Under the pieces are notes generated by a model. It did not search any database. It was not told where the DNA came from and was given only the letters and a program-made list of their open reading frames with translations. From the NCBI GenBank assembly GCA_026745465.1, contig JACYXH010000175.1, forward strand, positions 1,089,501-1,153,500: a stretch of DNA of 64,000 bases. The letters run 5' to 3'. Below, in pieces: positions 43,701 through 46,700 of the stretch. Positions within the stretch are counted from its first letter, which is position 1, and every line of letters starts with the position of its first letter. A program made the translations under genes and the position numbers. Source of the DNA: Lota lota (Eukaryota > Chordata > Actinopteri > Gadiformes > Lotidae).

Positions 43701-46700
43701 AGACTGGACAAAGGCAGAGCGTCTCTTGGTAGGCATGGGCAGCGCCATTTTCTCTTCTTTGTGCTTGGCCAGCGCTGCCTGCACCAATTCTGTGTGGATG
43801 TCTGGAAGAAGAAGAAAAAGCAAATGTTTATGTGTGTGTGTGCATGTGTGTGTGTGGGGGTGTATGGCAAGCCCTTTTAAAATTGTATCAGTTGGGCTGA
43901 CTAGTAGCAATTTAGTTTTCACTAATGGAAATGACATTTCGACATGTCAAAATGTAATTTTGACTAGTTAAAATGTTAATTTAAGATATCTGTAAAACAA
44001 TTTTGACATGGTAGAAATATATTTTCACATGTAAAAATTACATTTCGACTAGTCGAAACTGATGAACAGATATCTTTAATTTAATTATAGATATCAGTAA
44101 TTCCTTTTTCACTAGTAACAATAACAATTACAGATATCTACAATTGAATTTCCACATGTTGAAAAAAGATTGTAACTAGTGGAAATGTAACTACCCATTT
44201 CAGATATCAACAATTGCATTTCAGATATGTCCGACATATCAACAACATTATTAAAATTCCACAAAGCCATTGGTCGACATTTAATTACTATATTCGTTTC
44301 GGATATGTCGCCCTAATTACCATATTAGTTTCGGATATGTATGTACGTCATTGAAGATATCTACATTTACATTTTGACTAGTCAAAATTCCTTTTTTGAT
44401 ATCTAAAATTAAATTCTGACTAGTTATAAAAGGAATTGTAGATATCTCAAATATAATTGTTACTAGTACGAATATAGTTTTCACTAGTTACAATTGTATT
44501 TCAGATATCTGCAATGCAATTCTAGATATCTGAAATGCAATTCTAGATATCTGAAATTACATTCTTACTAGTTACAATTCCAAGCCGACATATCAATATT
44601 TAAATTTTTACTAGTCAGAATTGAATTTTAGATTTCTAGAATTTAATTAATGATATCTGTAATGTAACAACAATTGTAGATATCTACAATTAACATTTCC
44701 ACTAGTAAGAATTAAATTGTAGATATCTACAATTGACATTTCCACTAGTGAGAATTGAATTGTTGATATCAAGAATGAACATTTTGACTAATGAGAATTG
44801 AGTTGTAGATATCTTTCATTAGAATTGCTACTAGTCAAAATTACATTATGGATATGTTGGCTAGGAATTATAACTAGTCAAAAAGGAATTGTTGATATCT
44901 ACAATTGCTATTACCACTACTGATTAAATGTTAAAAGGGCTTGCCCATGTGTGTGTGTCTGTGTGTGTTTGTTCATAGGATGATTGCAGTGTTGGGTGTC
45001 TTTGGTGCTGAAGGTGTATCGGTAGGTATGTGTTGTATTACCTGATCTGTAGCGGTCGTCCCTGGTCCCTCCACTGCGGTGTGCACGGTGGCTCCTGGGA
45101 GCTGAGGAGGTGGAGGGCCCCGGGGCCTCCGGACTGGGGCTGGGCTCTGCACTGTGGCCCGGGGTGAGCTGCACATCAGGCAGAGACAGTTCCACACCTG
45201 GAGAGCAACAGAGAGAAACTGTATATGACGGTCATAGCATGGTTACATTGCCAATGCTATTGTAATGAAATAGGCTCAAGTATACTACAGTTTGTTTCAC
45301 TTTGACCACCAATTTGTTATGTGTATTGATGTTATTCATGACTAGTGTTCTACATCTTCTGGTTTAAATCCTACTAGAAACAAGTCTCATTGAAGCTGGA
45401 ATAGGAAGGATTTTATTTTTAAAGGAATTTTGCTCCAAAACATATCTTAGATACACTGACACTGTCTTGTGAGTGAATTTCATTGACCTGCGTAGCTGCC
45501 GTGCAAAGATATTCCATTCTCAAGTTTAACAGAGAGGCCCACTACTAACAATCAGAGAAGCTCAGCGAAAGAGCACACCCCCCGGCTGTCAATCAACTTT
45601 GTGCATACGATTCAAGGCTAGCATAGCTTTTTGAGCATATAGCTTGCTAGCTAGTAGTACTAGCTGGTTGGAAAGGTACTTCTTGGTATGATAAATATGG
45701 TGAGGAAAAAGAAGGCGGAACCTCGCTGTGAAACGTGAGAACGGAATATCTCTGCACTCCTGCAACACTGGTCAAACTCACTCACAGTAGATCGAGTCAG
45801 TGTGTCTACGTCAACATATATTTTGGTGCCAAATTCGAACAAAAAAAATAATCGTACCTACTTTCGGATCAGATTATACTTCAAAACTTTTATTTTTCAC
45901 GAAATCTTCACAGACTGATGTTGTAGTCCAACATTTTTATAAAGTGGATGCATTCATTTATAAACACGTCTACAAAAGAGTAAGGGAATATAAGGGGGAA
46001 AACTAAGTTTACTGACAAATGTCTTTACAGAGCTGTTTAAATGCGGCCTAGAGTCTCTGAGGCATATTGTTTTTGCCAAATATCAGAAGTGAAATGGGGG
46101 CCTAGCAGAGTCTTGCAGAGATGAAGGGCGTGGAGGCCCATGGAGACTGACACAAGGAAAGGAGGTGATCTTTCAGCTTAAAACCCTTCCAAATACCAGC
46201 TCCGGCCAGAAGAACAAGCGGTCATAGACCAAAATCCACCAACCGTGTTCATTTAAAGAAATAAAAGCCCTGATAGACCAAAGATTGATCACTAGATTGT
46301 TATATATATATGCAAGAAAACATTTTGCAAAAAAAATACAGATTCATTTTAAAGGCGATGCTAGTGTAAGGGTTGAAAAACATATACAGTCACACATTAT
46401 GAGACATGATTTATCCTCGAGGCAATTTAAAGAAACTAATAAGGAAACTAAAATCGAATGCACATCTCTGCCACAAGATGGCAGAACTAAGCCATTGGGG
46501 AAAGAAACAGCCCAACCAATAAGTAAGAAAATGTTACTAATACAGCCCAATTCGTGTTTACTTTACCTACGTAAACTATTAAGTGTTTCAGTAATGAACA
46601 ATCATGATTTTCAGGCTCCAGTGGAACAAAACAATGATGCCAATATTTATGTATACCAGCAGATTTATCTCAACACAACTTTATATGTGGATAGACAGTG

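Follow-up and report, generated by a model that had tools for sequence, protein, structure and literature searches.

The 64,000-nucleotide stretch of the Lota lota genome analysed here (the window) contains a copy of a MITE-like, non-autonomous TIR transposon. Its body consists of a single dyad motif, ATT-N3-(ACTAGT, GATATC or ACATGT)-N3-AAT, set out as a lattice with a step of 21 or 22 bp. Across the copies of this family, shared variants avoid the motif while private changes are spread evenly, which we read as purifying selection on the motif while source copies multiplied, followed by neutrality after insertion. The copies thereby provide a test resembling that of McDonald and Kreitman, in which private changes represent mutation and shared changes represent what the spreading copies tolerated, and the result is a letter-by-letter map of a 21-bp phased site that these copies kept. 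MITE interiors are commonly regarded as filler, and it has yet to be explained why some non-autonomous elements prevail. The map provides a specific motif to guide the search for a protein, as well as a way to read function from dead transposon copies.

Structure of the element

The perfect 15-bp inverted termini that an earlier note on this DNA had reported are present, and comparison with other copies, whose termini are three bases longer (TAT...ATA), extends them to 18 bp and the element to approximately 43863-44948 (Table 1). Within 43866-44945 we recovered the 15 ACTAGT and 17 GATATC words counted previously. Exact even palindromes with arms of at least 3 bp number 57 in this block, compared with a mean of 26.3 and a maximum of 42 in 300 dinucleotide shuffles. 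The autocorrelation of palindrome scores, proposed earlier as a check on 21-22 bp spacing, is highest at lag 21 (0.190), followed by lags 11 (0.181), 3 (0.148), 43 (0.144) and 32 (0.132); the ceiling over all shuffles at any lag of at least 10 is 0.126. Word counts, palindrome excess and the 21-bp peak each lie above all 300 shuffles.

Register centres were taken as cores with at most one mismatch, with off-register one-mismatch words removed by eye and the central 132 bp (44224-44356) set aside. Outside that stretch there are 43 centres, which define 41 steps when those across the stretch are left out; 39 of these measure 21 or 22 bp (the other two are 28 and 27 bp), in agreement with the chain of palindromes first described, in which 40 of 45 steps had these lengths. 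The window copy carries 31 strict units, and the number ranges from 16 to 38 across 29 copies. No stop-to-stop frame of at least 110 amino acids lies wholly within the element.

Table 1. Features of the transposon copy in the window (positions are those of the window)
Feature	Position	Strand	Remarks
Left 7-bp flank GGGGGTG, candidate target duplication	43856..43862	+	5/7 match to right flank; within TG repeat
Left terminus TATGGCAAGCCCTTTTAA	43863..43880	+	Perfect 18-mer; start common to many copies
First array, 16 register centres	43900..44229	.	ACTAGT, GATATC and ACATGT cores; steps 21/22 bp, one 28
Central stretch outside register, GGATATGT words	about 44230..44355 (~130 bp)	.	Shared 32- and 8-bp indels here
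Second array, 27 register centres	44356..44921	.	Steps 21/22 bp, one 27
Right terminus, inverted copy	44931..44948	-	Outer three bases CAT; ATA in other copies
Right 7-bp flank GTGTGTG	44949..44955	+	

Genomic copies and target duplications

We assign the block to the non-autonomous TIR transposons because it combines inverted termini, a target duplication, many copies and a lack of coding capacity. In the genome searched (575 Mb, 867 contigs), the 15-bp end has 301 exact matches (175 forward and 126 reverse), whereas the reversed control has none in either orientation; 19 of the forward matches belong to a single tandem array. With the element as query, 350 candidates were obtained and, among the 40 that were scored, query positions 1-1080 were matched at 86-92% identity in at least nine other places. 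When oriented, 21 copies are 94.8-97.6% identical to their own majority consensus.

Target duplications were sought at 54 loci, and at 39 of them both ends lie no more than 2.7 kb apart. In 21 of these 39 loci, six or seven positions of the 7-bp flanks match (7/7 in 13 and 6/7 in eight), compared with a mean of 0.66 and a maximum of 4 in 1,000 shuffles of the right flanks. In the 13 loci with 7/7 flanks, extension to 8 bp leaves only 0-4 of eight positions matching. Three further loci (L048, L053 and L054) have 6/6-bp flanks where an end base looks lost, one (L065) has 7/8 bp, apparently through loss or gain of an end base, and the remainder match poorly. The original proposal of a transposon-like element with further copies sharing its termini is thus borne out by both the exact ends and the duplications. 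A search of a phage collection with the element gave no match. The terminus occurs at 27 places in viral contigs, which we take to be chance; none of these has more than two motif matches.

The dyad motif and its register

The family consensus contains 39 exact cores, separated by steps of 21 bp (26 times), 22 bp (seven times), 43 bp (twice), 27 bp and 28 bp and by one 177-bp gap; each 43-bp step spans a degenerate core. TT is found at -8 and -7 in 38 of the 39 units, and AA at +7 and +8 in 38 and 39 units, respectively. When the two degenerate units are included, information amounts to 1.6-1.8 bits at the TT/AA letters and 1.1-1.2 at positions ±9, but only 0.1-0.3 at ±4 and ±6 and 0.02-0.03 at ±11. 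Positions ±5 are intermediate (0.5-0.8 bits), favouring T/C to the left of the dyad and A/G to its right. Units were picked by exact core word, so that the symmetry of the core is partly built in; the flanks played no part in this choice.

The 21-bp step is composed of 6+3+3+3+3+3 bp, and steps of 22 bp have an extra base between AAT and ATT. This arrangement places a second dyad, AAT-N3-ATT, midway between cores and one helical turn off, which fits the lag-11 autocorrelation peak. As to possible bending or nucleosome positioning, the Fourier power of AA/TT in the consensus, computed without a shuffled control, is high at 10.5 bp (9.1) and at 21-21.2 bp (10.0-11.4), as follows from the register. 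In the window, 22 of the 23 matches to ATT-N3-RNTANY-N3-AAT lie inside the element. Genome-wide, a two-unit pattern has 2,545 matches, compared with 247 for its reverse; most of the non-family matches among about 100 listed are ATT-rich repeats.

It had been argued that the register is kept because spacing holds even where cores are mutated. The mutated words in question, ACTAAT (43921, 44787) and GATTTC (44631), are intact cores in the family consensus and thus reflect later decay of the window copy. Such changes, confined to a single copy and postdating insertion, do not bear on the register, but the claim itself stands in that both words and register were kept during evolution.

Distribution of shared and private variants

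We mapped 46 of 53 copies onto the consensus, masking stretches below 80% identity; the other seven (L084, L086, L089 and L091-L094) cover less than 550 bp of it. The consensus was built from 21 of the 46 copies and units were chosen by exact core, so core counts are somewhat biased, whereas the test on flanks is free of this effect. Whatever the distance from the dyad, private changes (those found in a single copy) number 0.012-0.021 per base. In contrast, for variants present in at least three copies the share of positions affected is 1.2, 1.2 and 3.7% for distances 1, 2 and 3, respectively, 11-17% for 4-6, 4.9% for both 7 and 8, and 10-20% for 9-11. Overall, shared variants affect 13 of 410 positions in the motif and 63 of 463 in the spacer (p = 2.5e-8). 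With the motif mask displaced by 1-20 bp, the count of shared-variant positions is 22-49, and a displacement of 21 bp brings it back to 13, so that the minimum is confined to registers 0 and 21. None of the 60 positions in the terminal 30 bp of the two ends carries a shared variant; in the central stretch, 18 of 167 do.

The ratio of shared to private changes differs in the same way (13:215 in the motif and 67:264 in the spacer, p = 5.8e-7). The contrast is weaker if two copies suffice for a variant to be called shared (64:215 versus 135:264, p = 0.003) and remains if five are required (4:215 versus 36:264, p = 7e-6) or if CpG, CA and TG contexts are removed (11:187 versus 32:149, p = 2.8e-4). 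By half, it is strong on the right (p = 2.5e-6) and borderline on the left (p = 0.05). The flank letters alone also differ from the spacer (8/164 versus 63/463, p = 0.0016). As a guard against mis-paired units, we restricted the comparison to isolated substitutions, defined as having no more than one further mismatch, and no gap, within 15 bp. These hit 1 of 246 positions in the core, 4 of 164 in the flanks and 31 of 463 in the spacer (p = 2.6e-5 for positions and 5e-4 when set against private changes).

Similar differences are found in six more diverged alignments of at least 230 bp (selected at 78-91% identity and showing 78.5-89%; L085, L087 and L090 are also among the 46 copies), where mismatches amount to 1.6-4.7% in cores, 3.1-6.6% at TT/AA and 12.8-14.8% in N3. 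Taken alone, L091 has no such contrast (12/193 motif and 15/225 spacer mismatches).

Proposed role of the arrays

We consider it rather likely that the arrays serve as binding sites, repeated in tandem, for a dimeric DNA-binding protein on which transposition depends, probably the transposase, since the dyad site, its two-turn phasing and a constraint paralleling that on the ends all fit this reading. The protein would be supplied in trans, most likely as the transposase or a partner protein, and would bind cooperatively, along a single face of the helix, to the ATT-N3-core-N3-AAT sites with their two-turn phasing. The bound array could then gather protein on the element and help to bring its ends together, and copies with damaged sites would therefore spread less. 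A dimeric protein had been among the functions first suggested for the palindromes; it is the one best supported by the comparison of copies, although the protein itself was not found. The 31 strict sites of the window copy are many for transposase binding, which counts against this reading. We also entertain, with little expectation that it is correct, a ‘scaffold parasite’ in which the whole body would be a lattice nucleating a dimeric transposase polymerised in helical register. Such a gene-free element would outcompete others for scarce transposase, and the letters conserved in it would amount to a functional map of the transposase filament.

Alternatively, the sites may bind a host protein, such as a chromatin or transcription factor, that allows escape from silencing or access to germ-line open chromatin, so that selection would act on spread yet not via the transposase. 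We regard this as unlikely. The constraint data are compatible with any protein that makes source copies more successful, and GATATC contains overlapping GATA words on both strands. However, the constraint on the motif parallels that on the termini, where no shared variants were detected, which suggests the transposition machinery.

The null explanation from the outset was amplification by slippage. In a satellite-like form of it, slippage within a MITE would have multiplied a palindromic unit of 21 or 43 bp, and palindromes and spacing would be inherited without function. Several observations fit the gain and loss of units. Shared indels of at least 3 bp (listed when present in at least two copies) are 21 or 43 bp long within the arrays, except for one 4-bp deletion in two copies and a paired 3-bp insertion and deletion, whereas the deletions of all copies taken together vary widely in length, most often measuring 1 bp (39). 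Also, unit number varies between copies, one copy has 28 termini 43 bp apart, and a palindromic unit in tandem necessarily yields two alternating dyads. The unit length of shared indels gives weak support to a kept register, because slippage alone also favours unit-length changes. Decay after slippage should, however, strike cores, flanks and spacers alike, as private changes do and shared variants do not. Thus, slippage may have built the arrays but leaves the constraint unexplained, and we find growth without function quite improbable.

A foldback or hairpin element, with palindromes kept because single strands or transcripts must fold, is very improbable: a strand of 300 bases is predicted to fold much more stably than shuffles (z = -11.7), but in that fold different units pair with each other, and arm letters do not covary at ±5 and ±6 or at ±9 to ±11. 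In consensus units, arm complementarity exceeds that expected from column composition at the core and ±4 (p = 0.003) and nominally at ±7 (p = 0.03, a nearly invariant column), and does not exceed it at ±5, ±6 and ±8 to ±11. We therefore take the folding to be a by-product, given the lack of covariation at the N3 letters ±5 and ±6, and the extrusion of serial hairpins once envisaged is not supported.

Search for an autonomous partner

We did not find an autonomous element or a transposase with these ends among facing pairs of exact ends in the listed matches. The main list covers 100 of the 301 exact matches; for ends preceded by A or T, the lists together reach contig C249. By eye, such pairs are about 0.35-1.5 kb apart among the matches listed, except on contigs C47 (1.8 kb, nested copies), C80 (2.5 kb, a nested Tc1-like ORF) and C41 and C42 (11-12 kb, a large inverted duplication).

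The C41 and C42 pairs were rejected as 11-12 kb autonomous elements, as a copy there adjoins another copy within the large inverted duplication. These two short contigs (loci L075-L078) carry nearly the same inverted duplication, with arms of about 3 kb that are 99.2-99.9% identical; between the arms are 349-bp tandem repeats and ORFs that we presume to be retroelement-like. On C80, one element copy encloses an unbroken ORF of 371 amino acids (L079, 699-1814). We take this ORF to be a nested Tc1-type transposase from its appearance, and rejected L079 as an autonomous element. A 1,852-bp copy with a perfect 7-bp duplication (L063, contig C648) includes about 560 bp (157-721) unmatched by the consensus. 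The genome has a single locus matching the P-element-like domain PF21788 (L095, contig C733, 534021); the 3.2 kb around it lack the termini of the element, and it was rejected as a source of P transposase with these ends.

Relation to known transposons

The subterminal repeats of Spm/CACTA and Ac elements comprise many short sites bound by a transposon protein, located within a few hundred bases of each end and irregularly spaced. Here, in contrast, the phased dyad lattice extends over most of the body. None of the titles and abstract openings that we retrieved, from literature with limited coverage of subscription journals, describes such a lattice, and the 15-bp terminus gave only an unrelated match in the texts of papers.

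The closest likenesses below are drawn from extracts of the sources cited. Galileo, Newton and Kepler, of the P superfamily in Drosophila, share long, internally repetitive inverted ends, non-coding copies and 7-bp target duplications with our element, but their duplications have a GTAGTAC consensus, which ours do not, and the extracts describe no 21-bp dyad lattice (PMC2775673). The gadMor-hAT-1784 MITE of Atlantic cod is likewise a fish MITE with copies of about 1.3-1.4 kb, no ORF and internal inverted repeats in tandem; compared by description, it differs in having a 167-169 bp unit in two inverted repeats of about 600 bp and in being assigned to hAT (PMC12368964). That 168 equals 8 x 21 may be coincidence. 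Tetris, a foldback element of Drosophila virilis, has tandem repeats within inverted ends that seed satellite arrays, but its units are about 220 bp and the extracts mention no dyad site (PMC4079207). Plant Mutator-like elements with tandem terminal repeats resemble two of our loci with duplicated termini (L034 and L096), except that theirs are long terminal repeats in plants (PMC3310237).

Superfamily hallmarks, again as given in extracts, agree in part. The 7-bp duplication has the length found in Galileo, whereas Drosophila P and zebrafish P elements have 8 bp (PMC7776569); position counts over 21 duplications lack the GTAGTAC consensus of Galileo. IS3EU elements have TA..TA termini and usually 6-bp duplications (PMC10045372). 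The termini TAT..ATA conform to the first feature, but duplications are 7 bp in 21 of 39 loci and 6/6 bp only in the three where an end base looks lost. P and hAT elements make duplications of about 8 bp, and Dada elements lack terminal inverted repeats and target small RNA genes (PMC3706591). Here, one locus of 39 (L065) approaches the hAT length with 7/8 bp, and the terminal repeats are perfect, unlike those of Dada. Foldback elements have long inverted ends made of repeats; our element, compared with its own reverse complement, matches at 69% along 470 bp and has no separate long arms.

Terminal duplications and nested copies

The copy with 28 termini spaced 43 bp apart (L034, 339-1515; upstream of 2022777) lies on C19, the contig of the tandem array with 19 forward ends noted above. 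Its repeated unit runs from the transposon end to the first ACTAGT core, and the array is joined to one complete copy. At a second locus (L096, 194-304; contig C446), 55 bp from a terminus of the other end type to the first GATATC-type core are present twice. Both end duplications break at a core, and so do the nested copies at C41 and L080, to the extent that these can be read, which hints that cores are points of insertion or exchange.

Genomic context of the window copy

The window copy adjoins a minus-strand ORF with a match to the DMAP1-binding domain (27.6 bits, cut-off 27), which we assume to be DIP2-like. As read from the sequence, the copy probably lies within an intron. By eye, at 43803-43863, it is placed about 60 bp upstream (on the minus strand) of an apparent 3' splice acceptor of the DMAP-binding exon, and the element may therefore affect splicing. 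Elsewhere in the window, two ORFs at 20219-21192 match the trypsin domain.
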